NCBI RefSeq assembly: GCF_002934625.1
Contig: NZ_PTJD01000019.1
Coordinates: forward strand, 1-49,946
Direction of reading: 5' to 3'
DNA length: 49,946 nucleotides
From: Kineococcus xinjiangensis
GTDB lineage: Bacteria; Actinomycetota; Actinomycetes; Actinomycetales; Kineococcaceae
The notes under the pieces are model-generated. The model was not told the origin of the DNA. It saw only the letters and a list, made by a program, of their open reading frames with translations, and did no database searches. The translations under genes and the position numbers were made by a program. Each line of letters opens with the position of its first letter. The first letter of the stretch is position 1. Shown in pieces: positions 3,898 to 48,005 of this stretch.

Positions 3898-4527
3898 GAG
3901 CACTCCCCTTGACGACCAGGCCGACGACGCCGCGCCGGTGAGACACCGGCTCTGCCTCGTAGGCGCACGCCACCACAAGTGGCAACCACGCCAACCATCA
4001 CAGTCAGGTCACTGCGCCCGTCACAGATCGCTGAACATCCACCCGGACAGCGCAACACGGCTAGCTCATCCGCTCAGCGCAGCTCCGACGCACCCCGCGC
4101 GTCACGAGCTGAGCCGGCACTGCCTGAGGTAGTCAGGCCGAACGGGTGGAATCACCGACGCAACACCGCAGCGACGGAATCTCAAACTGGCCCGAGAGAA
4201 CTACATGCGCTGGGCACCAGGGGCGCAGCGCCTAGATCCCACCCAAGGACGCAGTCCAGAAGGAACGAAGCCCCCGTGACGCGACGTCACCCGATCCTCC
4301 GCCCTCACCGTCCCCACCGCTGCAGACGACGCCCGCCCGAACCCCCCAGACTTGTTCCCCAGTCGGGCCCCGCCCGGCCCGACCGGGCCCGGCCGACTCA
4401 CATGACCCGACCATGTCACCGTCCCGCTGCTGCTCCAGCCCTGCACTTGGTACCCGCTGCGGCGGTGGGGCCAGCCCTGGCCGCGCTGCTGCCCGACCGG
4501 TGCTCAAGCGTCGTCGGGACCTTGCAC
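3898..4527. other. Gene-free stretch between divergent genes
   Basis: About 630 bases with no ORF of convincing composition. It must carry the promoter of the leftward Rhs-like gene. The short ORFs in it on either strand are Arg/Pro/Thr-rich frame shadows with no recognisable motif. No repeat or hairpin of note was seen. Confidence 0.5.
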
Positions 4528-5526: not shown

Positions 5527-7011
5527 CTACGCCACAGGCGTGGTCGGCCAGTGCGCAGGGCGCACTACCTCCGGGGGCAAGGTCGTGGCGCTGTTGCCGT
5601 GGACGTCGGCCAGGTCGGCGCCGTGCAGGTTCGCCCCGGTCAGGTCTGCGCCTGGCAGGTTCGCCCCACCCAGGTCCGCGTGAACCAGGAAGGCGCCCTG
5701 CAGGTTCGCCTCGGCCAGGATGGCGTTCTGCAGGTTCGTTCGGGCCAGGTTGGCGTTTTGCAGGTTCGCCCCGGTCAGGTTGGCGTTTTGCAGGTTCGCC
5801 CGGGCCAGGTTGGCGTCCTGCAGGTCCGCCCCGGCCAGGATGGCATCTGCCAGGTGCGCGTCGGCCAGGAAGGCGACCTGCAGGTGCGCTCCGATCAGGG
5901 TGGCGTCCTGCAGGTTCGCCCGGGTCAGGTCGGCGTCCTGCAGGTGCGCGCCGCTCAGGTCGGCGTCCTTCAGGTGCGCGCCGCGCAGGTCGGCGTCCTT
6001 CAGGTGCGCGCCGCTCAGGTTGACTTCCTGCAGGTGCGCGCCGCTCAGGTCGGCGCCCTGTAGGCGCGCTCCGGTCAGGTTGGCGCCCTGCAGGTGCGCG
6101 CCGCTCAGGTCGGCGTCCTTCAGGTGCGCCCGGCGCAGGTCGGCGTCCTTCAGGTGCGCCCGCGCCAGGTTGGCGCCCTGCAGGTTCGCCTCGGCCAGGT
6201 TGGCGCCGCGCAGGTCGCTGCCGCGCAGGTCCGGGGATCGCTCGACGATGCCCCCTGCGCGGTCCTCGGCGGTTAGGGGAGCTCGTCGCGCAAGGATGGT
6301 CAGCGCGGTTTGGATGTCGATGGGGGGGCTCAGCAACTTCTCCGGCTCCGAGGTGGCGGGCGCCGGTTCGCGGCGCCCGTGGGCGACACGAGGACGGCGA
6401 GGCCGCGGTGTCGCTGCGGTGCCCTTGTCGTCAGCTGGAGGCCAGGGCGCGCGGTCGCGGATGTAGGCGCACAGGACGTCGCTGATGGTGGCGCGGTAGG
6501 TCTTCGGTTCCTCGCGGGCGAGCTGTTCCAGGGCGTAGAGGCCGCCGAGGCGGGCGTTGAGCTTGTCGTCGCTGATCAGCTGGATGGCCTTGACGTAGCG
6601 GTCGGTGTACTGCCCGGCCTGCGTCAGGGCGACGGTCTTCTCATCCCGCACGCGGGTCTGGACCAGGGTGCGGTGGCTGATCCAGGCGCTGATCCCCCCG
6701 ACGACGGCGAGGAAGAGCCCGGCGGTCGGTATCCGGGCGGCGTTGACCGCGGTGGCCCGCTCCGCTGGCGTGGCGAAGTTGCGCTGGTTGAGCCACTCCG
6801 GCACCGCCCACAGCGCCAACATCAACAAGCCGATGGCGAGGAACACCGCCGCCGAGAGGCTGATCGCACGAGCCATGAGCACGAGAGCACGCACCCAGGG
6901 CAGGGACGCGATCCGCTTCTCCGGGCGGCGCCCTCTCTGCGCGGGGCGGAGCCGGCGCCGATACGGCGCGGGCCGGGGCGCGTGTCCGTGATCGGCTGCC
7001 ACGGGCAGCAT
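5527..7011 (-). CDS. Membrane-anchored pentapeptide-repeat protein
   Basis: The ATG at 7011 gives 494 residues; the frame stays open to 7221 but that extension is Cys/Arg-rich and overlaps a rightward ORF. The SD is weak (AGG just before the ATG), so the ATG at 6876, just before the first membrane helix, is possible. Two hydrophobic helices near residues 47-72 and 92-112 are followed by a soluble section (YVKAIQLI, LGGLYALEQLA) typical of actinobacterial membrane pentapeptide proteins. A Pro/Arg linker leads to a long A(D/N)LXX array at about 257-475, more than 40 pentapeptides such as LQGANLTGA and LKDADLRGA. These fold as a right-handed quadrilateral beta-helix. The DNA repeats at 15 and 30 bp because of this. 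Some family members protect gyrase or act as scaffolds; no specific role can be assigned here. Confidence 0.85.
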   Translation of the reverse strand: MLPVAADHGHAPRPAPYRRRLRPAQRGRRPEKRIASLPWVRALVLMARAISLSAAVFLAIGLLMLALWAVPEWLNQRNFATPAERATAVNAARIPTAGLFLAVVGGISAWISHRTLVQTRVRDEKTVALTQAGQYTDRYVKAIQLISDDKLNARLGGLYALEQLAREEPKTYRATISDVLCAYIRDRAPWPPADDKGTAATPRPRRPRVAHGRREPAPATSEPEKLLSPPIDIQTALTILARRAPLTAEDRAGGIVERSPDLRGSDLRGANLAEANLQGANLARAHLKDADLRRAHLKDADLSGAHLQGANLTGARLQGADLSGAHLQEVNLSGAHLKDADLRGAHLKDADLSGAHLQDADLTRANLQDATLIGAHLQVAFLADAHLADAILAGADLQDANLARANLQNANLTGANLQNANLARTNLQNAILAEANLQGAFLVHADLGGANLPGADLTGANLHGADLADVHGNSATTLPPEVVRPAHWPTTPVA

Positions 7012-7087
7012 CCTGACAGCGCAGCGTGAGCGGTGGTCTGTGGATGACGCAGGTCGCTTCTGGCCGGCGCCCGGCAGGCTGTCGCCT

Positions 7088-7252
7088 ATGGACATCGCCG
7101 CGGACCTGGACGCCTGGCCGCACCTGTGCGCCGTCTGCGGCCAGACCCTCACCCCCACGCACCCCGCACCGGGCCGGCCCCGGCAGTGGCTGCACGAGGC
7201 CGTCCACGTCGACCACGTCACTGTGCCGCTGCTTCTGCAGCCGTTCGACTGA
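7088..7252 (+). CDS. Small ORF with one CxxC pair (54 aa)
   Basis: ATG at 7088 preceded by a weak GGCAGG. The peptide contains CAVCG followed by a Pro/Thr-rich segment and a HEAVHVDHV histidine cluster, which together could bind one metal ion in a half zinc-ribbon. The composition is protein-like rather than Arg/Pro noise and differs from the opposite-strand shadow. It overlaps the possible upstream extension of the pentapeptide gene but not its preferred start. Function unknown; existence uncertain. Confidence 0.4.
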   Translation: MDIAADLDAWPHLCAVCGQTLTPTHPAPGRPRQWLHEAVHVDHVTVPLLLQPFD

Positions 7253-17324: not shown

Positions 17325-19136
17325 TCACCCTTCACGCTCGCTCTGCGCCTGCTCGTTGTCGCAGCGCAGGTACGGATCGTAGTTCGGTGCAGGGTTGGAT
17401 GCCGTGAGAGGCTGCGGCGCGGGTCGATTGAGGAATGCTCCGCTCGCGATGTCTTGCCACGGCTGGTGGGAGTAGAACGGCGTGCATTGGATGAGTCGCC
17501 ATGAGCCACCCGACATGAAAAGGGCGTGCCCTGTGGGAATGTTTGCGAGCGTAGCGGGTGTTAGCTGATGCTCCCGTTGCACACTGTTCGACACGCTTTG
17601 ACCCGTTTGCCAACTCGATCCCACGCCGATTGGAATGCCGAAGTTGACGCTGCGCCCGCTGCTTGCGTTATACACAACGTAGGGTCGGTCCCAGTCTCCC
17701 GCCAGCGTGGACAGTGCCTCCAACGTGCGGACGTCACCGATGCCCGGGAACACGACCTTCGTGCTGAACAAGGTGAGGAACCCGTCTGCGGCATCGTGCC
17801 AGCGGCCCCGTGCTTGCGAGAGGTCCTGAAAACAAGCCATGACCTGCAGCCCCTGTCCGCCGCCTTCGGAGATGATGCTGGGCAATCTCTTGATTGGGGC
17901 GATGTTCGCGACCTCATCCAGTGCCCAGAAGACGGACGGTCCGGGCCAGCGCCCCACGCTTCGCGCGTCAGCGTGACGCTGGTAGGCCGCGCGCTTGATC
18001 TCCTCGAGGAGTCCGACGACCAGTGGGGCACACAGATGCTGCTTGTCGGAGGGAGAGGTGATGTAGACGGTGTCGCGAGAGGAGACGAAAGCGGCAGCGT
18101 CGAAGTTCTGCTTCTGACTGGCCGCGGCGACGCTGTCGGAGCCATAGACGTTCAGGACGATCCTCGTCGTCGCGCAGATCGCGCTTCGCTGGCGCTCATC
18201 GGTGTACAGGAGGATGGCGGCGAGGTCATCGGCTGCAGCCCGCTGCCCGTGCTCCACGAGGGTCGTGTACAGCTCCTTGCCGTATTCATTGGGTCGAGAG
18301 ACCCAGTGGCGGACGTCGACAATCGTCTTTCCGGAGACGTACGCGGCACGCAGCAGCGGTGCCAGTAGCGCCTTGGCTGACTCCGTCCAGTGCGAGGAGT
18401 TCTCAACACCGACGCCCGCCTGGGATGCGTCAACCATCGCGTCGGCGATCGCCCGTGCACCGTCCCAGGTTGAAGCGCTGTTCACTGGCGTCCAGTGCAG
18501 CGCACGCGCGTTCGGCGGGATCGGCTGACTTCCCGACGGGTCAAAGACCCACAGAGTGCCCATTCGCCCTCGTGCCGACGCCGTGGCGTGTAGAACGTCG
18601 TGCTTTGTCGATGTCACGACCACGGCGCCAGGCGCCGACAGAATCGCGGGAATGATCAATGCAGTAGTCTTGCCAGAACGTGGCGGCCCCAGAACGAGCA
18701 CGGCTTGCTCACGTGCCGCGGTGGTCCACTCCCGGCGGTCCGGGGTAACACCGACGTAGACGCCACCGTCGTTCTGCGCCGTACACTCGATGGCCGCGAG
18801 GTGCGGGTTGGGCGCCCGCGCGATCACGGCTTCGGGGCGGCACGCGAACCAGTCGGCAAGGCGTCGCGAATGCTCCTCCTGGAACTGCTGTGCGCGAAGA
18901 CTCCGTAGCGTCGGGGCGTACATCAAGTACGCCAAGTAAGCCCCCGGTGGGCCCAGCAAGAATGGTGACAGCAACAGCGCCGCGGCAACTGAACTAGTCG
19001 CCATCAGCAGAGTGAAGCAGACGCCGATGAAGCCCCATACCCCGAACAGAGCGAGCAGACACCCCGACGGCCCCTGAGAGGAGGGCACGTTGGGAGTCGG
19101 AGGTACTGCGGCGTGCGGACCCCACTGCTGTGACAT
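17325..19136 (-). CDS. VirD4/TraG-type coupling ATPase, first of two
   Basis: ATG at 19136 with GAGGGG and GGGCGGGG upstream; 603 residues. Hydrophobic helices at about 26-47 and 49-73 anchor it in the membrane. Walker A is GPPRSGKTT at 150-158 and Walker B FWALDEVANI near 404. Other family segments are IPAILSAPGAVVVTSTKHDVL, LWVFDPSGSQPIPPNARALHWTPV and a TraM-recognition-type C-terminal half (MACFQDLSQARGRW). These hexameric ATPases couple the relaxosome to the secretion channel and pump DNA. Having this plus a second VirD4-type gene at 20557 in one region is unusual. The gene is separate from the main transfer operon, after the 27-bp inverted repeat, with a 383-base upstream gap that should hold its own promoter. 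Confidence 0.85.
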   Translation of the reverse strand: MSQQWGPHAAVPPTPNVPSSQGPSGCLLALFGVWGFIGVCFTLLMATSSVAAALLLSPFLLGPPGAYLAYLMYAPTLRSLRAQQFQEEHSRRLADWFACRPEAVIARAPNPHLAAIECTAQNDGGVYVGVTPDRREWTTAAREQAVLVLGPPRSGKTTALIIPAILSAPGAVVVTSTKHDVLHATASARGRMGTLWVFDPSGSQPIPPNARALHWTPVNSASTWDGARAIADAMVDASQAGVGVENSSHWTESAKALLAPLLRAAYVSGKTIVDVRHWVSRPNEYGKELYTTLVEHGQRAAADDLAAILLYTDERQRSAICATTRIVLNVYGSDSVAAASQKQNFDAAAFVSSRDTVYITSPSDKQHLCAPLVVGLLEEIKRAAYQRHADARSVGRWPGPSVFWALDEVANIAPIKRLPSIISEGGGQGLQVMACFQDLSQARGRWHDAADGFLTLFSTKVVFPGIGDVRTLEALSTLAGDWDRPYVVYNASSGRSVNFGIPIGVGSSWQTGQSVSNSVQREHQLTPATLANIPTGHALFMSGGSWRLIQCTPFYSHQPWQDIASGAFLNRPAPQPLTASNPAPNYDPYLRCDNEQAQSEREG

Positions 19137-19519
19137 GACCCCGCCCTTTCCCCTCAAGTTCGTGGCGGGCTCAACGACCTGGCCAGCGCGCGTGCAGTGG
19201 CCACCGGTACCTGCTGAAGACCTGACCACCCTTCGGACCGCCGAGGTACACCTGCACAGAAGCGGAGCAGCACTATCACCGTCCACACGGGCCGATTCTA
19301 GGACGCCCGGTCCTCACCAAGGAGGCTTTCTACAGAGCCGGCCACCGACCGAGCCGACGGGGGCACCACGGCGGCCATGACTCCGTGATCTTCGGGGGCG
19401 CCTCCCTGGAGGGCGCTGCGGCATCTGAGTCTGAGTGACGTTTTCTCACCGGGTTGGTAGCTGAAGGCGGGTAAGACGTCGTTGCATTACAGCTCGTTTC
19501 ACTACGACTGTGGGAGTTT
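19137..19519. other. Intergenic region upstream of first coupling-protein gene
   Basis: 383 bases with no convincing gene. It lies between the terminator-like palindrome and the leftward coupling-protein gene, so it should contain that gene's promoter; I see no box I can name with confidence. Confidence 0.45.
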
Positions 19520-19577: not shown

Positions 19578-20560
19578 TTCCACCACCGCGAGGGCTCGCG
19601 AGCAGGCTCCGACGATGGCCAGCGGGAGGGGCCGGGGACGGGTGCGGCGACCGCTGGAAGCGTCAGCGTGGCGGGGCCATCGGGCTCCTCGCCGGAAGCG
19701 TCTGCGCCCGTGGCCTGCTGCTGGGGGATGTCAGGGCTCCTGCCGTTCTTCGGTGATGCGGCGGCCGCGGCCACCTGCTCCATCAGCTTCGCCAGCTCCC
19801 TGGTCGCGATCGCACCGGCACTCAGCGGCGCGTCGCCGTCATGCTCGGGCAGCTCCGGTGAGAGGGCAGGCATGCCCTCCGGCAGCGGCTGGAACAGCCC
19901 CAGGGGCGGGGCCTCCAGGGCAAGTCCGACGGCCTTGGGCTGGTGCCCCTTGTCCGGGGTGCAGCCCTTGAACGGGCCGTCGGGGTTCATCAGCACGCCC
20001 ATGTGCGGGCCGGCGTGGTCACGAAGCCACACCGACATGCCCAGGCCAGCGTCCTGGCGCAGCACTTCCCACGCCCGCCACAACGCGTCGAGACGGATCT
20101 GCGCCTCGGGGTGCTTCCACCACATCGGGCACCAGGTGAGGTTTCTGCCGTCGAGGTTGTGCCGGCGCCACATCGGCGCCAGGTACTGACGCACCCACGC
20201 CTCGAGGTGGGGGTAGTACAGCGGAGGCTGCTCCTGCTGCTGACCGGTAGGCGCAGCAGGAGCGGCGGCCGTGCCCGCCGCCGCAGGTACAGGGGCGGCG
20301 GCCGTCGACGTGGCGGCCGTCGACGTGGCGGCCGTCGACGTGGCAACCGTCGACGTGGCAGGCGCGGAGATGCCGGCAGTCACCGGATCCTGCGCAGCTT
20401 CCTGCGCAGCAACTGCGGGCACCCCATCCAGCGAGGACTCCTCGACCACCACGAGCTCCTCGACCGGCGCGAGCTCCCCAACCGGCGGGGCCTCGCCGTT
20501 CGGTGAGGGCTGGGTGTTCGGTGGGGGCTGGTCGTCCTCCCACTCCCCTATGCCGGTCAC
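19568..20560 (-). CDS. DUF4913-domain protein of the transfer operon
   Basis: GTG at 20560 overlaps the stop of the upstream VirD4-type gene (GTGA); 330 residues. The N-terminal 105 are acidic then Ala/Thr-rich with a four-copy TSTAA repeat. The DUF4913 domain lies at about 112-206, with its signature LEAWVRQYLAPMWRR, WCPMWWKHPEAQIRLDALWRAWE and DHAGPHMGVLMNPDGPF. The C-terminal tail is Pro/Ala-rich. DUF4913 proteins regularly accompany actinobacterial conjugation genes; the biochemical role is not known to me. The conserved Trp-rich pocket suggests a binding module, perhaps for the adjacent coupling protein. Confidence 0.8.
   Translation of the reverse strand: MTGIGEWEDDQPPPNTQPSPNGEAPPVGELAPVEELVVVEESSLDGVPAVAAQEAAQDPVTAGISAPATSTVATSTAATSTAATSTAAAPVPAAAGTAAAPAAPTGQQQEQPPLYYPHLEAWVRQYLAPMWRRHNLDGRNLTWCPMWWKHPEAQIRLDALWRAWEVLRQDAGLGMSVWLRDHAGPHMGVLMNPDGPFKGCTPDKGHQPKAVGLALEAPPLGLFQPLPEGMPALSPELPEHDGDAPLSAGAIATRELAKLMEQVAAAAASPKNGRSPDIPQQQATGADASGEEPDGPATLTLPAVAAPVPGPSRWPSSEPAREPSRWWKRA
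20302..20361. repeat. 15-bp repeat in the DUF4913 gene
   Basis: Four copies of CCGTCGACGTGGCGG (third and fourth with small changes) encode the Ala/Thr/Ser linker in front of the DUF4913 domain. Confidence 0.8.
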
Positions 20561-22347
20561 GGCACCTCCTGCGCGGCGACTCCGTGCTCCTCGCGCTGCT
20601 GCACCTGGTGCAGGGACTCATACGCCTGAGACAGGGTGTCGTGGGCGCCGGGGTCGTGGGCCTGGATCGAGGCGGCGACCTGCTCGGCGTGGGGGCCGGC
20701 CATCCAAGGGATGGTGCGGGCCAGGGTGGGGCGGGAACCGGAGGCGAGGACGACGGCGCGGCCCTTGGGCAGGGAGCCGAGGTCGGCGACGTCGAGGATG
20801 CGCTCACGGCGGGTGGAGCGACTCGTGGAGCGGCCGCCCTTGCCGTAGGAGGTCGACACCTGGGTGACGTCGAAGTCCCCGACGAGCTGGGAGACCTCCT
20901 GCAGGAACTCCACCTCGGAGACGCCGCCGCCGTAGACCTTCACGTTGGCCGCCGACCACAGCTTGCGCATGCCCTCACGTCCCCAGACCTCCACCCCCTG
21001 GGACCAGGACTGCAGGATGGTCATCAGGCAGATCCCGCGGGAGCCGTAGTGGGAGTAGATGTCGGGCAGGGTGCGCCAGCGGCAGACGTTGGCGGCCTCG
21101 TCGAGGACGGCGACCATCGGCACCGGCAGGCGGCCCCCGGCTGAGCGCTTGGCCAGGTCCTCCGCGGCCTCGCAGACGGCCACGGTCAGTGCGGTGACCA
21201 GCGGGCCGGCGGAGCCGTTGCCCTCACGGGAGAGGCTGTAGAGGGTGGAGCGGGAGCGGACGAAGTCGGAGGGCGAGAACTGCCGGCGCCTGTCGGTGGG
21301 GCCGTCGGGCACGACCCAGTGCACGGCCTGGCGGTTGGTGAGGAAGGACACCCGCTGCTTGGCGGTGCCGTAGACGCCAGCGCGCTGCTTCTCCGGGGAG
21401 CTGATGACCGCGTTGACGTTGGCGGCGATGAGCGGATGGCCGTAGCGGATCAGGAGTGCGACCGCCTCGTCCTCGGTCGGGTCGGTCAACCACAGGTAGA
21501 CCTGGGTGATGGGCCGCTCATCCAGTGCGGCAGCGAGCAGCATCCCGGCGAGCAGGTCGGTGCCGGCGGGGTCGAAGAACGCATCGGTGCGTGAGCCGGG
21601 CTCGCGGGAGGCGGAGGCGAACAGGTCCGCCAGGACGGATGCCTTGACCTCGTCGGTGACGTAGGAGAGGGGGTTCCACCACCACGTCGCGGGTTCCTCC
21701 ACGATGCCTTGCGGGTCGAAGACCCACACCGGCCCGACGCCGGCGCGCAGGTCGCGGGTGGCGTCGGCGAGGTCACGCTTGTTGGAGGTGGCCAGCACCG
21801 CACCGGGTGCGGTGAGGATGGCGGGGATCGCGCGGGAGGTGGTCTTGCCGGTGCGGGGGCCCCAGATGTCGACGGAGACGTCCTCCCAGGAGGCGTAGAG
21901 CGTCTGCCCGGTGGCGACGCTGGCCGCGATCGGCAGGCCGGGCGCGTTCACGCCGAGGCGCTGGGCGGTGGCGGTGGCGGCCCGCTCCCCCAGGGCCTCG
22001 ACGTCGCGGCCGCGGCCCATGTGCCTCGCGGCGCGGTCCACCCGGGACCGCTTGCCGCGCCCACGCAGCACCAGCCACAGCACCAGGGAGCCGAGCAGCA
22101 GCAGTGCGAGAACGGCGGCGGCGAGGAACATGGTGGCTGCCCGGGGCCAGGCGATGTCGCCGGTGAGGACCTGGATCAGGACGGTCATCGGGTTGGCCGG
22201 CACGTCGTGGCCGTTGCCCTCCCACCAGTTGCCCACCCGCAGGGCGACGTTGACCGCTGCGGCCGATCCCAGCACCAGCCCGAGAACGACGAAGAGGACC
22301 GCCGCCTGCGGGTCGAGGCTGCTCTGCCCCTTGCTCGTCGAGCTCAT
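20557..22347 (-). CDS. VirD4/TraD-type coupling ATPase of the main transfer operon
   Basis: ATG at 22347 overlaps the stop of the VirB4-type gene (ATGA); 596 residues. Two membrane helices lie at about 14-34 and 70-94. Walker A is WGPRTGKTT (162-170) and Walker B VAVLDEAANV (near 410-420). It contains the family segments IPAILTAPGAVLATSNKRDL and VGPVWVFDPQGIV, and a C-terminal part with CLMTILQSWSQGVEVWG. It should receive the relaxase-DNA complex and feed it to the secretion channel at the inner face of the membrane. It shares the AIL(T/S)APGAV and VFDP(Q/S)G segments with the product of 17325-19136, so the two are paralogues. It is cotranslated with VirB4-type and DUF4913 genes. Confidence 0.88.
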   Translation of the reverse strand: MSSTSKGQSSLDPQAAVLFVVLGLVLGSAAAVNVALRVGNWWEGNGHDVPANPMTVLIQVLTGDIAWPRAATMFLAAAVLALLLLGSLVLWLVLRGRGKRSRVDRAARHMGRGRDVEALGERAATATAQRLGVNAPGLPIAASVATGQTLYASWEDVSVDIWGPRTGKTTSRAIPAILTAPGAVLATSNKRDLADATRDLRAGVGPVWVFDPQGIVEEPATWWWNPLSYVTDEVKASVLADLFASASREPGSRTDAFFDPAGTDLLAGMLLAAALDERPITQVYLWLTDPTEDEAVALLIRYGHPLIAANVNAVISSPEKQRAGVYGTAKQRVSFLTNRQAVHWVVPDGPTDRRRQFSPSDFVRSRSTLYSLSREGNGSAGPLVTALTVAVCEAAEDLAKRSAGGRLPVPMVAVLDEAANVCRWRTLPDIYSHYGSRGICLMTILQSWSQGVEVWGREGMRKLWSAANVKVYGGGVSEVEFLQEVSQLVGDFDVTQVSTSYGKGGRSTSRSTRRERILDVADLGSLPKGRAVVLASGSRPTLARTIPWMAGPHAEQVAASIQAHDPGAHDTLSQAYESLHQVQQREEHGVAAQEVP

Positions 22348-37593: not shown

Positions 37594-39525
37594 ATGTACC
37601 TGGCCGACTCTCACGGCGCCTTTCGCTTCCTGACCTGCGACCTCGACGCCGCCAAGGGAGACGCCCGCGCCGACGCCCGCGCCCTCGCGCAGCTGCTGGA
37701 CGACCTCGCCATCCCCTGCGTGCTCACCCGCTCCGGGCCCAGCGACGGCCGTCACGTCTGGATCGGCCTGGCCGAGCCCGCCGATGCCGACCTCGTGCGC
37801 GAGCTCGCGCACCTCCTTCGTCGGCTGTGCCCCACGCTGGATCTGTCCCCGCTGACCAACCCCGCCACCGGATGCGTACGTCCCCCCGGTGCACCGCACC
37901 GCGCCGGCGGCCGCTCCTCCCTGCTCGCCGGCGACCTCGACACCCTCCTCACCCCCCGCGTGCGCCTAGCCCACCTGCACCGCCTACTCGCCGCCCTTCG
38001 CCTGCGCTTCCCCGCGCCGGTCCCGGTGACTTCCCAGCCGCGAGAGCACAGCGGCAGCATCTGCACCGACAGCAGCGGGCACCCGTACCTGCCCGGCACC
38101 CGGCGCGAGCTCCCTGCGGCCAGCCGCGCGGCCCTCGTCTCCCCCGTCGCCGCCGGCGTCGACGGCTCGGCCTTGCTGCGCTCCGTCCTGCTCGGCGCGG
38201 CCGCCGCGCACTGGCACCTCTCCGACATCGCCCAGCTCGCCGATGACGCCCCCTCCTCCCCCGGCCTGGAGCACCTCCGCAGCGCCGCCGGGCGCCCAGG
38301 ACAGCCCCGCCGCCCCCGCAGTGCCGTCGAGAGCGGGCGCCTGCTCACCCGGCAGTGGGCCCGCGCCGTCACCCACGTCGCCACCACCACCCGCCACGCA
38401 GGCGATGACGCCACCTTCGGGGCCCGCGCCCACGCCGTCGCCCAGCTCGTCGACGACGTGCAGGCCCGCGCCCACGCCACCAGGGGCCGCTGGCGCCTGC
38501 GCGGTGGCCCCAGCCTGCGCCGCGTCCTCGACGTCCTCTGCGAACTCGTCCTAGAGGCCGTCACCGGCGTCGTCGAAGCCGACATCCGCCGCATCGCCCT
38601 GATGTGCGGGATCGGGCGGGAGACCGCCCGCACCGCCCTGCTGCGCCTGGCCGAGGAGGGCTGGATCCGCCAGGCCCGCCCCGCCGAAGGCCCTCACGCC
38701 GCCTACTGGGCTCTCCTCTCCCCCACCGGCGCCGCGTCGCCGCCCCGCCGCGACCGGGACCTCGTCGGCGGCAGTCTCGCCGTGGAGGCGACGCCTGCCC
38801 CCGACGAGGCATCAGCGCAGGTCAGCGGCCTTCCGGCCGCGCTATCCACAGGGGATCCGGGTAGATCCCGGTCACAAGCTGACCCAGCGCCCCCGGGGTG
38901 GTCTCCTCCTCTCCTCCCCCGGCCCCTCGACTCCTCCGGGGCAGGGCTGCGCACCTCGCTACTGCACCTGCTCACTGCCCGCCGGGAAGCCCAAGCACAC
39001 CCGCTTTTCACCCCGACCGGCCTTGGGCACCGGCCTGGGCAGGTCTGGGCGCTACTACGGGAGAACTGGCCCCTGCCCACCTCCGCCGTCGCTGAGGAGC
39101 TCGGCGACAGCATCGACACCGCGGCCGCCGACCTGGACTGCCTGCAGGAGCACGGACTGCTCCACCACGGCCCCCGCGGCTGGCTCACCACCGACTCCAC
39201 CATGCGCGACCACCTCGCCGCCGAACGCGGCATCGAGGACCTCCTCACCGACCGCGCAGCCCGCTACACCCTCGAGCGCGAGCTGTGGGCCTGGTGGCAG
39301 TCCGAGCAGGAGTGGATGAGCGCCCCCCGGCGCACCAGCGGCCCCCGTCGAGCCGGCGCCGGGCAGCTCCAGCTCCTCCCCCACCACCACGCCCGACCTG
39401 CGCACCCCCGCCGCAGCGACGGCCGCTGCTCCTGGCGCACCGCCCGCCGTGCCCTTCTCGAGACCGGGCCGAGCACCGGACACGGCAGCCCACGAGCCCG
39501 TCGCGGCGATCACGCCCCCGCCTGA
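37594..39525 (+). CDS. AEP primase-like / winged-helix plasmid replication protein
   Basis: From the only canonical in-frame start, ATG 37594, the product is 643 residues. Primase-polymerase (AEP) signatures are visible: motif I FLTCDLD (D16, D18), motif II SGPSDGRH (47-54, H54) and motif III near LDLSPL (D83). The usual R-P-P-G-A-P-H-R segment follows. A winged-helix lies at about 329-365 (IALMCGIGRETARTALLRLAEEGW) and a second one at about 484-525. Plasmid replication initiators often combine an AEP domain with DNA-binding domains. Coding appearance continues upstream of the ATG (NTYSRERHVG, PARPW), giving the first strand of the fold, yet no ATG, GTG or TTG exists back to 37165. So the start is unresolved: CTG/ATC start, frameshift or a sequencing error. 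It lies beside the partition locus, as rep genes do. Confidence 0.7.
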   Translation: MYLADSHGAFRFLTCDLDAAKGDARADARALAQLLDDLAIPCVLTRSGPSDGRHVWIGLAEPADADLVRELAHLLRRLCPTLDLSPLTNPATGCVRPPGAPHRAGGRSSLLAGDLDTLLTPRVRLAHLHRLLAALRLRFPAPVPVTSQPREHSGSICTDSSGHPYLPGTRRELPAASRAALVSPVAAGVDGSALLRSVLLGAAAAHWHLSDIAQLADDAPSSPGLEHLRSAAGRPGQPRRPRSAVESGRLLTRQWARAVTHVATTTRHAGDDATFGARAHAVAQLVDDVQARAHATRGRWRLRGGPSLRRVLDVLCELVLEAVTGVVEADIRRIALMCGIGRETARTALLRLAEEGWIRQARPAEGPHAAYWALLSPTGAASPPRRDRDLVGGSLAVEATPAPDEASAQVSGLPAALSTGDPGRSRSQADPAPPGWSPPLLPRPLDSSGAGLRTSLLHLLTARREAQAHPLFTPTGLGHRPGQVWALLRENWPLPTSAVAEELGDSIDTAAADLDCLQEHGLLHHGPRGWLTTDSTMRDHLAAERGIEDLLTDRAARYTLERELWAWWQSEQEWMSAPRRTSGPRRAGAGQLQLLPHHHARPAHPRRSDGRCSWRTARRALLETGPSTGHGSPRARRGDHAPA

Positions 39526-39852
39526 AGACCCCCTCCCCCGACCGCCCAGCCACGACGACGCGAGGACACCACAACGCGAGAAGAGACCACACGCCGGCAC
39601 GAGCGCACGGCCAAGCGCCCGCCGAGCCACACACTCAGCACCAGCACCCCCTGCTCGCTCCCCCGCCGCCCCTGAAGGATCCCTCCATCAGCCACCGTCG
39701 ATGGCGCTGACGACCTCCTGGGCGCCGGAGAGGCGCCCAGGAGAGCAGCCACTCCGCGCGCTACCCGTACGCACTCCCCCGCAGGGCGCGACCGCGCCTG
39801 AACAGCACGCCCAACAGTCACCGCACGCCGCAACGAGGGTCAGCACGCGTGA
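39526..39852. other. Intergenic region between rep and the octad array
   Basis: Pro/Arg/Thr-coding noise on all frames, one strong hairpin (listed separately), no credible gene. It separates the replication gene from the repeated centromere-like segment. Confidence 0.5.
39716..39742. terminator. Hairpin downstream of the replication gene
   Basis: An 11-bp perfect stem (TCCTGGGCGCC 39716-39726 with GGCGCCCAGGA 39732-39742) and loop GGAGA, 190 bases after the rep stop. Suited to insulating the par region from rep transcription. Confidence 0.7.
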
Positions 39853-40219
39853 TCACAACGTCACAACGTCACAACGTTTGAACTCCTTCAGATGTGGCGC
39901 ACGTTGCAACGTCCGAACGGCGCAACTCCTCGACCTCGGCGCCATCGAGCTGAAAAGCTGCGCCATTGGAACGTCCCGGCGTCCCAATGTCCAAACGGCC
40001 CAACGTTGGGGCGCTATAGCGTTGGAACGTTAGGAATTTCCAACGCTTGGACGCAGCAGCGTCCCAGAGTTGCGATGCCTCAACGCCGCATCGCGGAAGG
40101 TCGAAGCACCCAAGCGGTCAGGGCCTGCAACGTTAGGACATTGGAACCCCCCAACGTTTGAGTGGGCAGCGTTGGCCCGTTCAAACCTTGGGACGTTCAC
40201 GTGTCGAGACATCCGCTTC
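39853..40219. repeat. Array of 8-bp octads, candidate plasmid centromere
   Basis: Degenerate octads of consensus TYSSRACG repeat head to tail. TCACAACG stands at 39853, 39861 and 39869. Related octads fill 39904-39935. An unbroken run of about sixteen spans 39966-40093, for example TTGGAACG at 39966 and 40022, TCCAAACG at 39990 and TTCCAACG at 40038. Another run covers 40125-40219, with one seven-base slip at 40165. The register holds at eight bases over long stretches, with a few slips. Octads are read mostly in one orientation, but SS in the middle lets both GG and CC. This is not a coding pattern, and it stands upstream of parA. By analogy with 7-bp heptads bound by omega-type RHH proteins, it is probably parC bound by the RHH protein from 41173. 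Confidence 0.75.
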
Positions 40220-40378
40220 AGTGGCTATGCGACCAGCGTGCGGGCGGTTTCAGCATTCCAGCAAGGGAACGTGTTGGAGGTGTCGCCACAGCTGGCACAC
40301 CCCGGGCCTGGGCGGGGCGCGGCGCCAAGGCCGGCCGTGCGTCCCAGTGCCACGCGGTCGCATAGGCGGGGACGCCGC

Positions 40379-40458
40379 ACCAAACGTTGGGACATTGGAA
40401 CGTTGCGATGTTTCGGCGTGTCGATCCCGCAAGCTTGGGGTGTTGGGATGTTGGAATG
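40379..40458. promoter_or_regulatory. Ten octads overlapping the parA control region
   Basis: Ten 8-bp units in exact register from 40379 to 40458, including TTGGGACA at 40387, TTGGAACG at 40395, TTGGGATG at 40443 and TTGGAATG at 40451. The last ends five bases before the parA ATG (40464), occupying the place of a Shine-Dalgarno sequence and probably the promoter. This implies the RHH protein represses parA-parB transcription from the same type of site it uses as a centromere. Confidence 0.7.
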
Positions 40459-40463
40459 CCGCC

Positions 40464-41180
40464 ATGACGCACATCGTGACCGTGGCTGCCCGCAAGGGGG
40501 GCGTCGGGAAGACGACCATCGCGTACGAGCTCGCGTACCTCCTCGACGCGCCCCTGGTCGACCTCGAGTTCGACGACGGCTCCGCCACCCGCATCTGGGG
40601 CTACCGGCACGAAGCGCGCCTGCGTGCGCCGCTGCTCGACGCGCTCGAGCGAGGCACTCCGCCACGCATCCTGACCGGATACCACAAGCCCGACCTCGTG
40701 CCCTGCCACCCCGACTTCCAGCTCAACCAGCCCGAAGCGGACGCCATGGCCGACATCCTCACCGACTGGGCTGCCGCCTGGGACCGGGAGTACGTCGTCA
40801 TTGACACCCACGGGGGAGGCTCTCCCTCCGGTGACGGCGCGATCGCTGCGGCCTCGACCGTGATCGTTCCGACGCCGCTGAAGACGAAGGATCTCAACGC
40901 CACCGAAAGCATGGTCCGGGAGATGCCGGACTACCCCCTCGTCCTCGTGCCGAGCATGGTGCAGCGCGTCCCGCCGGCCGCCGAGATCCGCCGCCTGGGC
41001 AGCATCGTGCACGGCACTCCCATCACCGTCGCCGAACCCGTGCCCTACGTCCGCGGCATCGAGACCCGCAAGAAGCGCGTCGCGATCACCTCGGAAGACC
41101 CCACGCCCAAGGCCAACGTCGAGTTCGTCGCCGCCATGCACCAGCTGGCGTCCTTCGTGAAGGAGAACAACCATGCCTGA
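40464..41180 (+). CDS. parA: ParA-family partition ATPase
   Basis: ATG at 40464; upstream in-frame extension runs through the octad array and is not protein-like. The 238 residues have the deviant Walker A KGGVGKTT (11-18), the Walker B-like strand YVVIDTHG with D near 114, and LVLVPSMVQ. The short length and absence of an N-terminal HTH place it among small (type Ib) ParA proteins that partner with small RHH centromere-binding proteins. ParA polymerises or forms a gradient on the nucleoid and moves plasmids apart. No SD is visible; the octads take its place. The stop overlaps the next gene by eight bases. Confidence 0.88.
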   Translation: MTHIVTVAARKGGVGKTTIAYELAYLLDAPLVDLEFDDGSATRIWGYRHEARLRAPLLDALERGTPPRILTGYHKPDLVPCHPDFQLNQPEADAMADILTDWAAAWDREYVVIDTHGGGSPSGDGAIAAASTVIVPTPLKTKDLNATESMVREMPDYPLVLVPSMVQRVPPAAEIRRLGSIVHGTPITVAEPVPYVRGIETRKKRVAITSEDPTPKANVEFVAAMHQLASFVKENNHA

Positions 41181-41820
41181 GGCGCGTCCGGACGGCCTGG
41201 CTAGCCTGTCCAAGGCACGGGAGCGTCGCTCTCGCACGATGCCCGCCCCTCGCCACCCCGTCCGGCCCAAGGTGGGCACCGCCGACGCACCTGCCGCCAC
41301 CCAGGCACTCGCAGTCACCGCCGAGTCCCCCAATGACGACGCCTCCGGCAGTGCGCAGCAGCTCGCCAGTACCGCCACGGGTGACGCACCCCCGGCCGCA
41401 GCCACAGTCACCGCTGCAGCCGCAGCGGGCCGGGTGCCGGTGCGGGACACCGCAGCAGTGGAGGGGAGGGCCGGCACGCCTGTCAGCGCGGCCGCGGCGC
41501 CTGCACCCACGTCCTCGGCGCGCAGTCCTCGCCGACCCGCCAAGGCCGACGGCGCGGCCCCCGTCCTCGAGACCCCGCGCCCCACCGCAACCAGCGTCCC
41601 CAAGGCCACGACCCTCTACCTCGACGAGGACGTCAAGGGCTTCCTTCACTCCGTCCGCGTCGCCGGCATGACCGCCGCCCAGCCCATCGACGTCTCCCAC
41701 AGCGCCGTCGTCCGCCTGGCAGTGCGAGCACTGCGGGAACGCATGACCCCAGCGGAGATCATCGAGTACTTCGCCGCCGTCGAACCCGACTCCCACGCCA
41801 CCGGGCGCAAGCGCCGGTAG
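41173..41820 (+). CDS. RHH centromere-binding (ParB-like) protein
   Basis: ATG at 41173 is inside the last codons of parA (eight-base overlap), so the two are coupled. Of 215 residues, the first 140 are Ala/Pro/Thr-rich and disordered with a basic N-terminal patch (KARERRSRT). That tail likely stimulates the ParA ATPase, as in ParG-type proteins. The C-terminal domain, from about residue 147, reads as a ribbon-helix-helix: strand ATTLYLDE, helix DVKGFLHSVRVAGM, helix SHSAVVRLAVRALRERM. RHH dimers bind short repeated boxes, fitting the 8-bp octads that flank the operon. It has no ParB HTH or CTP-binding motif. ParG/omega proteins have the RHH at the C-terminus too. Assignment by fold reading and position. 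Confidence 0.78.
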   Translation: MPEARPDGLASLSKARERRSRTMPAPRHPVRPKVGTADAPAATQALAVTAESPNDDASGSAQQLASTATGDAPPAAATVTAAAAAGRVPVRDTAAVEGRAGTPVSAAAAPAPTSSARSPRRPAKADGAAPVLETPRPTATSVPKATTLYLDEDVKGFLHSVRVAGMTAAQPIDVSHSAVVRLAVRALRERMTPAEIIEYFAAVEPDSHATGRKRR

Positions 41821-41845
41821 CGACAAAGACGCGCCTTCCGAGGCG

Positions 41846-41885
41846 TTGAAACATTGAAACATCCCAACCTCGGAACGTCGGAACC
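41846..41885. repeat. Five octads downstream of the parB-like gene
   Basis: Five contiguous 8-bp units in exact register: TTGAAACA at 41846 and 41854, TCCCAACC at 41862, TCGGAACG at 41870 and TCGGAACC at 41878. These match the consensus better than most upstream units. They begin 25 bases after the RHH gene's stop and may be a second loading site or an operator. Confidence 0.75.
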
Positions 41886-42130
41886 CCGCGGCTTGGGATG
41901 CGCGGCCTTCAGTGCGACTGAGCGGGGCGGTGACTGCAGGAGGCAAACGCCTGCGGGCGGTACGGGCCTGTGGCTGCCGTGCCGCCCGCCGCACTCACTG
42001 GGGGAGCAGGTCCGATCATCTGCGCTTCAGGCAGGCGCCACCCACCACGGCACGCCACCGCAGGTGATGATGCCGCTGTAGGGGGCTCTTTCGTGCCATG
42101 TCCCTGCTCGGCGCCGCCCTGCGGGGTCGG
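41886..42130. other. Intergenic stretch after the par locus
   Basis: About 245 bases; no ORF, repeat or hairpin that I can support. Confidence 0.4.
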
Positions 42131-42585: not shown

Positions 42586-43668
42586 GTGCGCGTGCTGCCG
42601 CATGATGGGTGGATGCGGCAGCAGTGGTGGGGTGCAGCGGTCATCGCGGCGGCCGTACTCAGCGGCTGCAGCCCGGCCTCTACCTCCCAGGCACCCCCGC
42701 CAGCCGACCCCGCCCCAACTAGCTCCGCCTCGTCCAGCACCTCGGTGCCCGCTGCGCCGGCCCCATCGGACAGCGGCGCGTCACCGGAGCCGCCCGCGCC
42801 CCCGTCCTCGACGACCGCGCCGGCGCCTGCGGCCGCGCCGGGCACGGCGCGGGAGGTCCTGGACACCCTGGCGGTCAAGGGCAGGGCGCCGAAGACCGGC
42901 TACGACCGCGACCGCTTCGGCCCTGCCTGGCAAGACACCGACGGCAACGGCTGCGATACCCGCAACGACATCCTCCGCCGCGACCTCGTCGACGAGGTCG
43001 CCAAGCCCGGGACCCGGGGCTGCGTCGTGGCCGCCGGCACCCTGCAGGACCCCTACGCCCCCCGCGCCATCGCCTTCACCCGCGGCGAAGGCACCAGCGA
43101 TGACGTGCAGATCGACCACGTCGTGGCTCTCTCCGACGCCTGGCAGAAAGGCGCCCAGCAGCTCAGCGAGCAGGAACGGGTGGCCTTCGCCAACGACCCC
43201 CTCAACCTCCTCGCCGTCGACGGGCCCCTGAATCAGGCCAAGGGTGACTCCGATGCCGCGACCTGGCTCCCGCCGAACCGCGCCTACCGCTGCGCCTACG
43301 TCGCCCGTCAGGTCGCGGTCAAAGCCAAGCACCGTCTCTGGATCACCACCGCTGAACGTGACGCCATGGCCGGGGTCCTCGACACCTGTCCCACCGAGCC
43401 GGTCCCCACCGACACCACCGTTCCCGGCCCCGCCCCCGAGGGGGCAGTTCCACCGCCCCCAGCCCCCGCACCAGCTGAGCCAGCACCACCCGCACCCGTC
43501 GCGCCTGCCCCCGCTGCGCCGGCTCCCGCGCCCGGTGGGGGAGAGGACCCGCGCTATCCCAGCTGCAAGGCCGCCAAAGCCGCCGGCTACGGCCCCTACA
43601 CCCGAGGGGTAGACCCCGAGTACGACTGGTACAAGGACGGCGACTCCGACGGCACCAACTGCGAGTAA
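42586..43668 (+). CDS. Lipoprotein with GmrSD-like HNH nuclease and excalibur domain
   Basis: GTG at 42586 has a strong GGGGGAGG seven bases upstream; an ATG at 42613 fits as well. The 360 residues start with a lipoprotein signal, lipobox VLSGC (C28). A Ser/Pro linker leads to a DUF1524/HNH nuclease domain with GYDRDRFGPAW, DTDGNGCDTRNDIL, the metal motif QIDHVVAL (D177, H178) and PLNLLAVDGPLNQAKGD. A second Pro/Ala linker precedes a C-terminal excalibur calcium-binding domain (YPSCKAAKAAGYGPY, DWYKDGDSDGTNCE, about 323-360). Secreted proteins with this layout are common in actinobacteria and probably degrade extracellular DNA. It may provide defence or nutrient use; no link with transfer is evident. 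Confidence 0.87.
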   Translation: MRVLPHDGWMRQQWWGAAVIAAAVLSGCSPASTSQAPPPADPAPTSSASSSTSVPAAPAPSDSGASPEPPAPPSSTTAPAPAAAPGTAREVLDTLAVKGRAPKTGYDRDRFGPAWQDTDGNGCDTRNDILRRDLVDEVAKPGTRGCVVAAGTLQDPYAPRAIAFTRGEGTSDDVQIDHVVALSDAWQKGAQQLSEQERVAFANDPLNLLAVDGPLNQAKGDSDAATWLPPNRAYRCAYVARQVAVKAKHRLWITTAERDAMAGVLDTCPTEPVPTDTTVPGPAPEGAVPPPPAPAPAEPAPPAPVAPAPAAPAPAPGGGEDPRYPSCKAAKAAGYGPYTRGVDPEYDWYKDGDSDGTNCE

Positions 43669-44543: not shown

Positions 44544-47500
44544 TTAGTCTGTCCAGATGCCGCCGTCGATCAGCGCCACGGCGCTGTCGTAGGACTCGTC
44601 GGAGGTGTCGGCGAGTGCGATCTTGACGGTCACCGCCTTGCCGGGAGTGACCGGCACGGAGCAGGTGAGGGGAGTGGTCAGCCCGTCCATGCTGGTGGCG
44701 TAGCCGGCGGCGCCGTTGGCGTTGTCCACGTAGAACTTGCTGTTGTAGATCGCGTTGATCGTGTTGACGGCAACGGGCTCGTCGGTGCCGGGGACGTTGG
44801 AGCAGAGCTTGCCGTCCACGCGCACGGACATGACGTCGTTGAAGGCGCTGCCCACGAACTCGGGGTACTCCTCGCTGGCGAAGACGTAGCGCACGTGCAG
44901 GTTGTCGCCTTCGGGGATGAGGGTCACTTCGTAGGAGGCGGCATCGTGCGTCGGGAAGCCTGCCAGTGCGCTCAGTTCGCTGTCACCCGGCCTGTTGAGC
45001 TCGGTGCTGGCGAACTTGTCCGGGGAGCCCAGGGCGTTGGAGATGTGCCCGGTGCTGAGCACCCATGCCTTCTTGCCGGGGACGAAGCCGTCCAGGTGTC
45101 CCCACTGGTCACCGCCGCCGACGGACTTGTCGTCGACCTTGGTGACGCCGTCACCGAGGAGGGAGTCCTGGGTGCCGGGGTCGGGGGTCTCCTCGGCACC
45201 CTTGCTCTTGCAGCCCTTCGGCAGCTCCCAGGGGGAGCCGAAGTAGGGCGTCGATCCCTTCAGCGCCTCGAAGCTGATCTCCTCGGTGTGCTCCCAGACG
45301 GGGATCCAGGCCGTGGCGACGAGGCTGAGGCTGCGGGAGAACTCGGCCTTGGCGTCGATGCAGGCGTTATACCGGGAGTCGGTGGCAGCGAAGTAGGGCT
45401 CGAAGCTCGCGTCGATCGGGTTGAGCTTTCCACTGACCCCGGCGATGACGCCGGCATCGGAGGTGCCAACACCGGGGCCGATGATGAGCTCGCCACCGGC
45501 CTTCAAAGCCAGGGAGCCGTTGGCCTTGACCTCCGGTTCCAGTGCGGCGACTTCCATGATGGGACTGCCGGAGAAGGACACCCCCTCCTTCACGCTCATC
45601 GTGCCCTTGGCGGCGAAGCCGGCCTTGGCGGAGACACCGATGTTGGACACCGACAGGGCGCCGCCGGCGCTCACCTCGGCGGTAGGTGCCAGACGCATCG
45701 AGATCGGCACGGGCGAGACGGTCAGCGGCTTGAAGACCTGCGGAAGGTTGACGCCGCAGGCGTAGGCGCCGCTGACCTCGACCTTGGCTGCGCCCTTCAT
45801 GTCGGCGTAGACCGACATGTCCACCGAGGCACCGACCGGCAGGTCCGGACCGATGTTGTTGTGCTTGTCGATCTTGGTCTTGAAGTGTCCACCCATGCCC
45901 ACGCTCGGGGCGAACTCCACCGAGCTGGAGCCTCCACCGAACTCGCACTGGCCCTTCGGCTGGCCCTTGGCCGCAGGGGAAACAGCCAGATCGGCCGCGG
46001 CGACCTCGGTGTCGGCCAGGTCGAGACCGGCGAGCAGGTCGGTGGGCTTGAGGAGGGAAGCGGGGGAGGCCGGCGCCGGCGCCACGGTGAACTCGGCGAC
46101 GTTGAGGTCGTAGTAGTCGAAGGCGTCGCCGAGCCCGGTTGCCGTCAGATCCAGGGTGCGGCCATCGGCGGAGATCGCGGTGACCGTGCCGAGGAAGCCG
46201 CCGGGGAGGGCCTGGGAGATCGGCAGGATGATCGCTGAGCCCAGCGGCGGGGTCGCCATTGTGGAGCTGAGGACAACCTGCACGCCCGTACCGGTGGTCT
46301 TGGCGCTGGTGATGTCGCCGCCTTCGGTCAGGACCGTGGTGGGCGTGGCGACGTAGGCGGCGTCGGTGGACCCGGCGGTGGGGGCGGTGCCGGCCACGAC
46401 GCTCAGCGGACCCGTCCAGACGCCCTGGTTCAGGGTGAAGAGGGAGTAGGTGTACTGGGTACCGGCCGACAGGCCGGTGTCGGTTGCCGTCGTGCCGTCC
46501 ACGGCGACCTCGACGCCCTGGGACCGGTCGGTTGCGGCGTCGTCGCCGCTGGTGCGACGCAGCGAGAAAGCGGTGCCCTTCGGCGCCGTCCACGTCAGGG
46601 TGACGCTGTCTGCGGTGAGGGCGGTGGCGTGCAGGTCACGGGCGCCGCCGTCGGCGACGTAGGTGGCCTCCACATTGCTGGACTGATTGGCCGCGACGGT
46701 GACGTTGGCCTGGCTCGTCGTGCCGACGTAGCGGGTCCCGTTGACCGTGACGCTGGGGAGCTGGATCTGGTAGGTGCCCGCAGGCATCGTCAGGGCGACG
46801 TCGCTGCTGGTGCCCTCGGGGCTCTTGGCGGCCACCCGGTAGGTGCCGCCGCGCAGCTCCACGTTGGCGGCAACGCCGTCCGGGGCGTTGACCTTCACGC
46901 GCACGGTCCCCGTCGTCGGGGTCGAGACGGGCGGAGGAGCGACGGGCGGCGTCGTGGCCGGCGGTGTTGCGGAGGGGGGCGTGACCTGCGGGGCCGTCGC
47001 GGCTCGCGCGGCGGCGGTGAGGGTGTCGGTGCAGATGGCGCCCTCACCGCCGAGGGCGATGACGGAGCCGGCGTTCATCGCGCGCAGCGACTGCTGCACC
47101 GAGTCAGGCAGGCCGGCGCAGGAGGGCACCAGCAGCACGGGGCCGTCGGTGAGGGAGCCTGCCGCGAGGGCATCAGCGAAGACATCACCTCGGGCGATGT
47201 AGGCCTTGGCGGGGGTGGTAGCGCGCTGCGCGATCGCTGCTGCCGCGATGGCCGCGGCGGAGGCGTAGCGGTCGGCGCCAGCCAGGCGTGCGGTGGGCTT
47301 GCCGGCGGCGGCGGCGGTGAGCAGCGCCTCGGAGATGGTGGCGGGGCCACCGAGTGCGATGACCTTCTCCGGGCGCAGCCGGGCGATCTCGGCGGCCACA
47401 GTGGCGGGCACCGGACCGGCGCTGGGGACGGTGAGGATGGGGCCGTCGGTCAGTGCGCCACCGGCGACGGCGTCGGGTGCTGTGTCGGCGCCGGAGGCGA

Positions 47501-48005
47501 TGTAGACACTGCGGCTGCCGGAGGGGAAGGCGCGCTGAGCGATCAGCACCGACGTCTGGTAGCGGTCCTGGCCGGCCAGTCGGTGGGTGCTGGCGCCGAC
47601 CGAGGCGGCCACGCTCGTGAGCAGGTTGTCGCAGACCGCTCCCTGCCCGCCCAGGGCGACTACCTGAGTGGGGCGCAGAGCCTTGACTGCCGCGAGGGTG
47701 GTGATGGGGGCCGGCCCGCACGAGGGAACGAGCAGGACGGGGCCGTCGCTGAGCGATCCCGCCGCCAGGGCATCGGCTGGGACATCACCTCGCGCGAGGT
47801 AGACGACACCGGCGCCCTTCGGGAACGCGGCCACCGCGATGGCCGCGGCGGTGGCGTACCGGTCCGCGCCGGCCAGGCGTGCCGTGGTGGCCGCCGCGTC
47901 CGTCGTGGCGTTGAGAGCGGAGGGAGCCGCCGTGGCCGGACTGACCGTGAAGGTGGTGCCGGTCATGGTGGCCGCAATGAGCAGCCCGAGTACGCGGTTA
48001 CGCAC
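44544..48005 (-). CDS. Large surface protein: three CWB2 repeats, FnIII, choice-of-anchor L
   Basis: GTG at 48005 with GAGG eight bases upstream; 1153 residues. Signal peptide ends after ATAA near residue 27. Three cell-wall-binding type 2 repeats follow over about 40-335. Each has R(L)AG(A/Q)DRY, a helix, VYLARGD/VYIASGAD/AYIARGD, LTDGPIL(L)VPS and VIALGG. These attach the protein to wall polymers. Next are a beta domain, a fibronectin-III-like domain (TALTADSVTLTWTAPKG) and a long beta-rich middle. A C-terminal choice-of-anchor-L domain (about 970-1153) has YVFASEEYPEFVGSAFNDVMS, INAIYNSKFYVDN and KIALADTSDESYDSAV. It is therefore an exported adhesin-like or structural surface protein. It could mediate cell contact, but no evidence ties it to mating. 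Confidence 0.88.
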   Translation of the reverse strand: MRNRVLGLLIAATMTGTTFTVSPATAAPSALNATTDAAATTARLAGADRYATAAAIAVAAFPKGAGVVYLARGDVPADALAAGSLSDGPVLLVPSCGPAPITTLAAVKALRPTQVVALGGQGAVCDNLLTSVAASVGASTHRLAGQDRYQTSVLIAQRAFPSGSRSVYIASGADTAPDAVAGGALTDGPILTVPSAGPVPATVAAEIARLRPEKVIALGGPATISEALLTAAAAGKPTARLAGADRYASAAAIAAAAIAQRATTPAKAYIARGDVFADALAAGSLTDGPVLLVPSCAGLPDSVQQSLRAMNAGSVIALGGEGAICTDTLTAAARAATAPQVTPPSATPPATTPPVAPPPVSTPTTGTVRVKVNAPDGVAANVELRGGTYRVAAKSPEGTSSDVALTMPAGTYQIQLPSVTVNGTRYVGTTSQANVTVAANQSSNVEATYVADGGARDLHATALTADSVTLTWTAPKGTAFSLRRTSGDDAATDRSQGVEVAVDGTTATDTGLSAGTQYTYSLFTLNQGVWTGPLSVVAGTAPTAGSTDAAYVATPTTVLTEGGDITSAKTTGTGVQVVLSSTMATPPLGSAIILPISQALPGGFLGTVTAISADGRTLDLTATGLGDAFDYYDLNVAEFTVAPAPASPASLLKPTDLLAGLDLADTEVAAADLAVSPAAKGQPKGQCEFGGGSSSVEFAPSVGMGGHFKTKIDKHNNIGPDLPVGASVDMSVYADMKGAAKVEVSGAYACGVNLPQVFKPLTVSPVPISMRLAPTAEVSAGGALSVSNIGVSAKAGFAAKGTMSVKEGVSFSGSPIMEVAALEPEVKANGSLALKAGGELIIGPGVGTSDAGVIAGVSGKLNPIDASFEPYFAATDSRYNACIDAKAEFSRSLSLVATAWIPVWEHTEEISFEALKGSTPYFGSPWELPKGCKSKGAEETPDPGTQDSLLGDGVTKVDDKSVGGGDQWGHLDGFVPGKKAWVLSTGHISNALGSPDKFASTELNRPGDSELSALAGFPTHDAASYEVTLIPEGDNLHVRYVFASEEYPEFVGSAFNDVMSVRVDGKLCSNVPGTDEPVAVNTINAIYNSKFYVDNANGAAGYATSMDGLTTPLTCSVPVTPGKAVTVKIALADTSDESYDSAVALIDGGIWTD

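Follow-up and report, generated by a model that had tools for sequence, protein, structure and literature searches.

The window analysed here, the entire 49,946-bp contig of Kineococcus xinjiangensis, whose ends do not overlap, carries arrays of degenerate 8-bp units (octads) on both sides of a parAB gene pair, and these arrays very probably serve a type I ParABS partition system as its centromere (parS), in which the octads would be coated by a ParB that is probably a ribbon-helix-helix (RHH) protein. The locus contains three features expected of type I partition, namely a Walker-type ParA, a small ParB encoded directly 3' of it, and tandem short repeats adjoining the genes. It would provide a probable centromere for a family of actinobacterial plasmids in which ParB lacks a clear family assignment.

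Across positions 39853-40219, identity at lag 8 was 0.443 (z=+7.7), where 500 dinucleotide shuffles averaged 0.258. It was likewise raised at lag 16 (z=7.5) and at lags 24, 32, 40 and 48 (z=3.0-4.3), and depleted at lags 4 and 12 (z about -4); the runner-up lag in the range 5-15 was lag 15, with a z of 2.0. The 8-bp period claimed for this segment by the initial annotation was borne out by this autocorrelation against shuffled sequence, which gave peaks at 8 and its multiples. A periodic HMM set 40 full octads in 39853-40213 (the main block), in keeping with the earlier count of about 40 head-to-tail units, but it placed them in six in-register segments, not in the single exact register that had been described; the longest unbroken in-register run is 39951-40093, 143 bp or about 18 units. 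More than 2 bits were scored by 31 of the 40 main-block octads under a matrix that was trained on the same region and is hence favourable, and the same score was reached by 3.2% of positions in the rest of the window. Two further blocks, both absent from the initial annotation, were found close to the genes. The second block, 40382-40463 with 9 full octads, lies 168 bp past the main block and runs up to the base just before the parA ATG, while the third, 41839-41898 with 6 full octads, begins 18 bp past the parB stop; a short weak block of 3 full octads was also set at 40247-40272. We propose the main and third blocks as the left and right parts of the centromere, and the second block as an operator as well as part of the centromere. 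In an 8-bp scan of the whole contig, the main, pre-parA and post-parB blocks were the top three separate peaks (z 9.3, 7.1 and 6.7). Slippage of a simple repeat was set aside as an origin of the arrays, as the degenerate units and the recurrence of the palindromic octad in other genera would argue against it. An Rfam search of 39500-42100 returned no match, and a promoter scan of the same interval found no sigma-70-type site.

The octad consensus is GTYSSRAC, with GTTGCAAC as its strongest form, and it is self-complementary, containing the palindrome GTTnnAAC. The unit had previously been written TYSSRACG, which is the identical unit begun one base later. When training was started from GTTNNAAC, the correlation of the octad matrix with its own reverse complement was 0.96, and motif-free training on the best 104 bp still gave 0.92. 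Allowing at most one mismatch, GTYNNRACGTYNNRAC had 14 matches in the window, 13 of them inside the par region, where 1.2 were expected, and this number was equalled in 0 of 100 shuffles. A palindromic octad centre in a periodic array implies a second axis at every junction, between AAC and GTT. Column permutation (4000 permutations), which has little power on single loci, gave p=0.076 for the palindrome in the window; across 18 loci, nine shared the lowest range, 0.039-0.043, and the remaining nine lay at 0.076-0.39, with 0.39 for R. equi and 0.32 for M. chelonae. The palindrome is clear in the consensus, and its locus-by-locus significance is modest. Doubt also attaches to the earlier description of the octad as GC-adapted, its core being GTT/AAC in a contig of 71% G+C.

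The parA gene (40464-41180, + strand) encodes a 238-aa Walker-type ATPase (KGGVGKT) that matched AAA_31 at E 2.7e-6 and the ParA-like family phrog_164 at E 9.2e-22. In plasmids, 112 records matched this ParA, all at less than 60% identity and 109 of the 112 with at least 80% coverage. Among 99 related genomes, 15 (the own genome counted) had a match at 1e-3, the strong ones being the own genome, G009, G006 and G011 only. At E<=1e-20, matches to ParA came from 7 of the 394 class-level genomes, the own genome again counted, and from 5 of 397, 1 of 5 and 4 of 293 genomes of three orders, which overlap with those at class level. A search of IMG/VR found no relative of ParA, and tblastn against 50,697 phage records gave none at 1e-3.

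The end of parA and the start of parB (41173-41820, + strand) overlap by 8 bp. The 215-aa ParB consists of an N-terminal GL..L motif with PAPRHP, a long P/A-rich linker and a conserved C-terminal domain predicted to be RHH, with a ribbon around T147-L148-Y149-L150, and the same layout was seen when it was aligned with its counterparts: conservation at the N-terminal motif (consensus GL..L...R.....PPPRHP) and in the C-terminal domain, with variation in the P/A-rich linker between them. Family searches with ParB gave nothing better than E 0.07, an RHH match for the window ParB itself being absent; PHROG yielded no match at E 1, nor did tblastn in plasmids at E 1. The C-terminal domains of 16 ParB relatives matched RHH_1 in three cases (best 0.0029) and ParD_antitoxin in one (0.0015), and HTH_32 matched two of the 16 with a best value of 0.0029, as good as that of RHH_1. 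The best RHH_1, DUF6364 and Antitox_RHH values in an earlier alignment scan were traced to the ParB of mycobacteriophage RedRock, a member of that alignment. Against the PDB, a full-length ParB profile had no match up to E 10, and a profile of the C-terminal domain had six, four of them of unrelated kind; the best was TTHA0139 (E 0.015), and the ParD1 antitoxin was reached at E 0.35. An AlphaFold model of the C-terminal domain, made from two sequences, was poor, with a pLDDT of 56, three helices and no strands. On the weak matches of its relatives, ParB is tentatively assigned to the RHH type, an HTH-like domain being a possible alternative because HTH_32 matches the relatives as well as RHH_1 does. 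In plasmid gene tables, which are known to be incomplete, counterparts of ParB appear as 'hypothetical protein' or are missing, as in pVAPB1475.

Similar arrays recur beside related parAB genes. We compared 28 loci, comprising the window, RedRock (L026) and 26 relatives picked by ParA similarity, with the duplicates L001 and L003 left out, and searched, at each, the 700 bp upstream of parA and the 700 bp downstream of parB, taking as the score the best lag-8 signal over 104 bp, expressed as z against 60 shuffles. A z of at least 5.5 was reached by 17 of the 28, namely the window, RedRock and 15 of the 26 relatives (L004, L019, L020, L021, L022, L023, L024, L027, L028, L029, L030, L031, L036, L038 and L040, among which L030 and L040 share an identical ParB). 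These 15 positives include plasmids of R. equi, other Rhodococcus, Gordonia, mycobacteria, Nocardiopsis and Thermobifida, and two of them, L020 and L031, have their stronger array downstream of parB. As controls, lags 7 and 10 attained 5.5 in 0 of 28 loci, lag 6 in three (L031, L033 and L039) and lag 9 in three (L023, L039 and L041); lags 6 and 9 are multiples of three, such as coding sequence would give, and in L023 lag 9 (5.8) stood slightly above lag 8 (5.6). The other 11 of the 26 relatives were below 5.5 at lag 8 (L005, L018, L025, L032, L033, L034, L035, L037, L039, L041 and L042). For two of these, the Streptomyces-type L041 and L042, the choice of parB frame is doubtful and the downstream stretch may be misplaced, while L033 carries an annotated ParB of the ParB/RepB/Spo0J type. 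Five loci added to the comparison had parametric z values of 10.7 (L045) and 9.0 (L046), both clear arrays, and of 5.2 (L044), 4.7 (L048) and 1.4 (L047).

The two nearest ParA relatives are split. One, L037 (ParA 80%), fell below 5.5 in the shuffle table but has an AACGTT array at a parametric z of 6.9, with scan peaks of 6.7 and 5.1; the other, Kineococcus rubinsiae (L018, ParA 81%), is without an array, an eight-piece scan of its 155.7-kb contig giving no period-8 peak above 4.8. The K. rubinsiae ParB has Ser at the place of a near-invariant ribbon Tyr, which would fit an altered site. When a replacement site was sought in K. rubinsiae, the only find was an AT-rich island accompanied by a weak period of 7 bp: the island, about 110 bp within a GC-rich stretch, lies upstream of parA at about 4795-4905 of L018, where many relatives have octads, and over the 700 bp preceding parA lag 7 had a z of 3.8, lag 6 being higher at 5.1. 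Three tandem octamers resembling GAGTAGTC, the RedRock parS word, were also seen about 2.4 kb past parB (L018:8797-8820) and may be chance. In G011 (ParA 51%, ribbon TQLYLD), the 18.6-kb contig had no period-8 peak above 3.4.

The majority of arrays carry the word AACGTT, many of these loci being close kin and hence not independent. Period 8 was also found with other words, such as ACCGGT in Thermobifida and Nocardiopsis (L023, L024), an ATCGAT type in G006 (L004), a weak GCA type in Streptomyces (L025, L034), a CAT type in L039 and TCGAGTAG in RedRock. Upstream of parA in M. chelonae pMchErm55 (L030) and genome G377 (L040), there is a 16-bp tandem repeat, GATCGGTA-CAGCGTTT, made of two alternating octads. 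We set the words against the ParB residue two before the near-invariant ribbon Tyr (T147 in the window) for 31 loci, with L001, L003 and L040 left out as duplicates and RedRock not included. By the contact logic of RHH proteins and from the alternation of hydrophobic residues, this position is predicted to face DNA in the ribbon. At the 21 of 31 loci with a parametric z of at least 5.2, the residue was T or S in 16, and the best half-site in these 16 was AAC, ACG or GTT in 13, with AGC (L029) and GCG (L027) as variants and L030, whose ribbon residue was read by eye, as an exception to the T/S pattern (GAT half-site, 16-bp repeats). Other residues went with other half-sites: E with CCG in two of two cases (both ACCGGT loci), A with TCG (L004), P with GCA (L025) and Q with CAT (L039). 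The octad word apparently tends to change with the ribbon residue of ParB, an association that is correlation and not proof, because the T/S loci are largely related. Together with the period-8 arrays beside homologous parAB genes in many plasmids, this tendency of the word to follow a predicted DNA-facing residue gives good support to the partition site proposed by the initial annotation.

A wider generalisation, which we offer tentatively and regard as possible but somewhat short of probable, is that a family of actinobacterial plasmids, those of mycobacteria and the virulence plasmids of R. equi among them, has a single palindromic octad centromere in common, with a sequence that would be set largely by the ribbon residue two before Tyr, T or S going with GTTnnAAC, E with GGTnnACC and A with the ATCGAT type. 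If true, the ParB sequence could serve to predict the specificity of partition and the incompatibility of plasmids. The simple link suggested between ParB sequence and centromere sequence is testable, and would be useful for forecasting which plasmids exclude each other.

The most serious rival takes the main block for iterons, and hence for part of an origin, bound by a replication initiator encoded upstream. An initiator-like ORF with primase-type and winged-helix matches (37594-39525, + strand; AEP-TOTE E 3.9e-7; phrog_391, replication initiation O-like, E 2.5e-4) lies outside the par cassette, with the main block about 330 bp downstream of it. Iterons are tandem repeats close to rep genes, and in L028 an annotated rep gene is found about 1.4 kb past parB. 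We nevertheless judge an iteron array unlikely, as octads are also located 3' of parB and beside parAB in many relatives, and in the loci compared, with flanks of about 1.5-5 kb and homologues of this ORF alone sought, the ORF was matched at E 1e-4 only by the window's own copy. It is quite improbable, too, that the octads form a large ParB operator for autoregulation and have no centromere role. One block does touch the parA start codon, but the main block stops 168 bp short of it, another block is 3' of parB, and about 40 sites would seem beyond an operator's need; moreover, according to a study of RedRock (PMC7157519), its parABS cassette with 8-bp repeats stabilises plasmids. Very unlikely indeed is a clt transfer locus whose TRS repeats would be used by a TraB translocase. 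The TRS repeats of Streptomyces plasmids are likewise 8 bp (PMC4170104), but the arrays here are located at parAB, the contig encodes two type IV secretion coupling proteins of the TraG/TraD type, and an FtsK/TraB match was absent among the 28 contig ORFs scanned.

The two coupling proteins are encoded at 17325-19286 and 20557-22347 on the - strand, and their presence suggests that the contig is a conjugative plasmid. Near the par cassette, 42586-43668 (+ strand) encodes a GmrSD C-terminal-type domain together with an Excalibur calcium-binding domain. On the - strand are a cell-wall-binding CWB2 protein with fn3 (44544-48005), a pentapeptide-repeat protein (5527-7221) and an LGFP/CBM96 protein (58-3978).

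For the octad arrays as parS of a ParABS system, we propose a model in which a two-fold symmetric ParB dimer would sit on one palindromic octad, GTTnnAAC, through its two-stranded ribbon. Adjacent dimers on consecutive octads would be expected to bind cooperatively and so coat the block. The N-terminal arms of ParB would touch nucleoid-bound ParA-ATP and trigger its ATPase, and plasmid copies would be drawn apart. A second role, as the operator at which ParB would repress its own operon, is probable for the block that abuts the parA start codon.

Several characterised systems offer comparisons, some nearer than others. MetJ is an RHH protein but a metabolic repressor, acting at few boxes per operator, and not a partition protein, and the centromere of pCXC100 is reportedly composed of 9-bp repeats with an 18-bp subsite, unlike the octads. 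MetJ resembles the proposed ParB in that its metboxes are palindromic 8-bp sites, each taken by one homodimer, with at least two adjacent sites needed (PMC3228920). The pCXC100 ParB of Leifsonia resembles it as part of an actinobacterial type Ib system whose centromere consists of direct repeats only (PMC5016525). In the ParF-ParG-parH system of TP228, a degenerate array is coated by RHH ParG dimers, and ParG also acts on an operator 5' of its genes, but the units are tetramer boxes with AT-rich spacers, and both the sequence and the host group are different (PMC7308502). The omega protein of pSM19035 is an RHH ParB on contiguous short repeats; its units are 7 bp and occur in either orientation, whereas the octad here is itself palindromic, and at least four contiguous heptads are needed for full activation of the ParA ATPase (PMC9499535). 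By analogy, the run of about 18 octads would meet a rule of this kind. More generally, a 2026 study describes centromeric repeat arrays as the binding sites of RHH-ParB systems and reports that 52.1% of PLSDB plasmids have no or an unidentified partition system (PMC13245405). For R. equi plasmids, the passages on par genes in two papers (PMC6794481, PMC5434932) name parA and parB and do not mention such an array. In the open-licence literature, with most subscription journals outside the scope of the search, we found no description of the octads of the R. equi, Rhodococcus, Gordonia and mycobacterial plasmid family.

The closest precedent is RedRock, whose parS-L and parS-R each carry an 8-bp motif, directly repeated eight times, that its ParB recognises (PMC7157519), and the statement in the initial annotation that an actinomycete octad centromere was undescribed does not stand. 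The same study notes poor maintenance, despite parABS, of plasmids based on certain of these phage replicons (PMC7157519). As at 39853-40463 and 41839-41898 in the window, 8-bp repeats flank the RedRock parAB on both sides, and in its sequence we found period 8 on either side of the genes (z 12.9 and 10.4). The ParA proteins of RedRock and the window both match phrog_164 (2.4e-40 and 9.2e-22), but in pairwise comparison the 185-aa RedRock ParA is only weakly alike (two short BLASTP pieces, best 2e-4). RedRock differs in having eight units per site, against about 40, 9 and 6 here, in its motif TCGAGTAG, and in its ParB, which is 89 aa, is without the long linker and belongs to the Arc-like family phrog_2639 (1.4e-34), to which the window ParB had no match. 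The literature already contains an octad centromere from an actinobacterial replicon, and the arrays described here are a further probable example.
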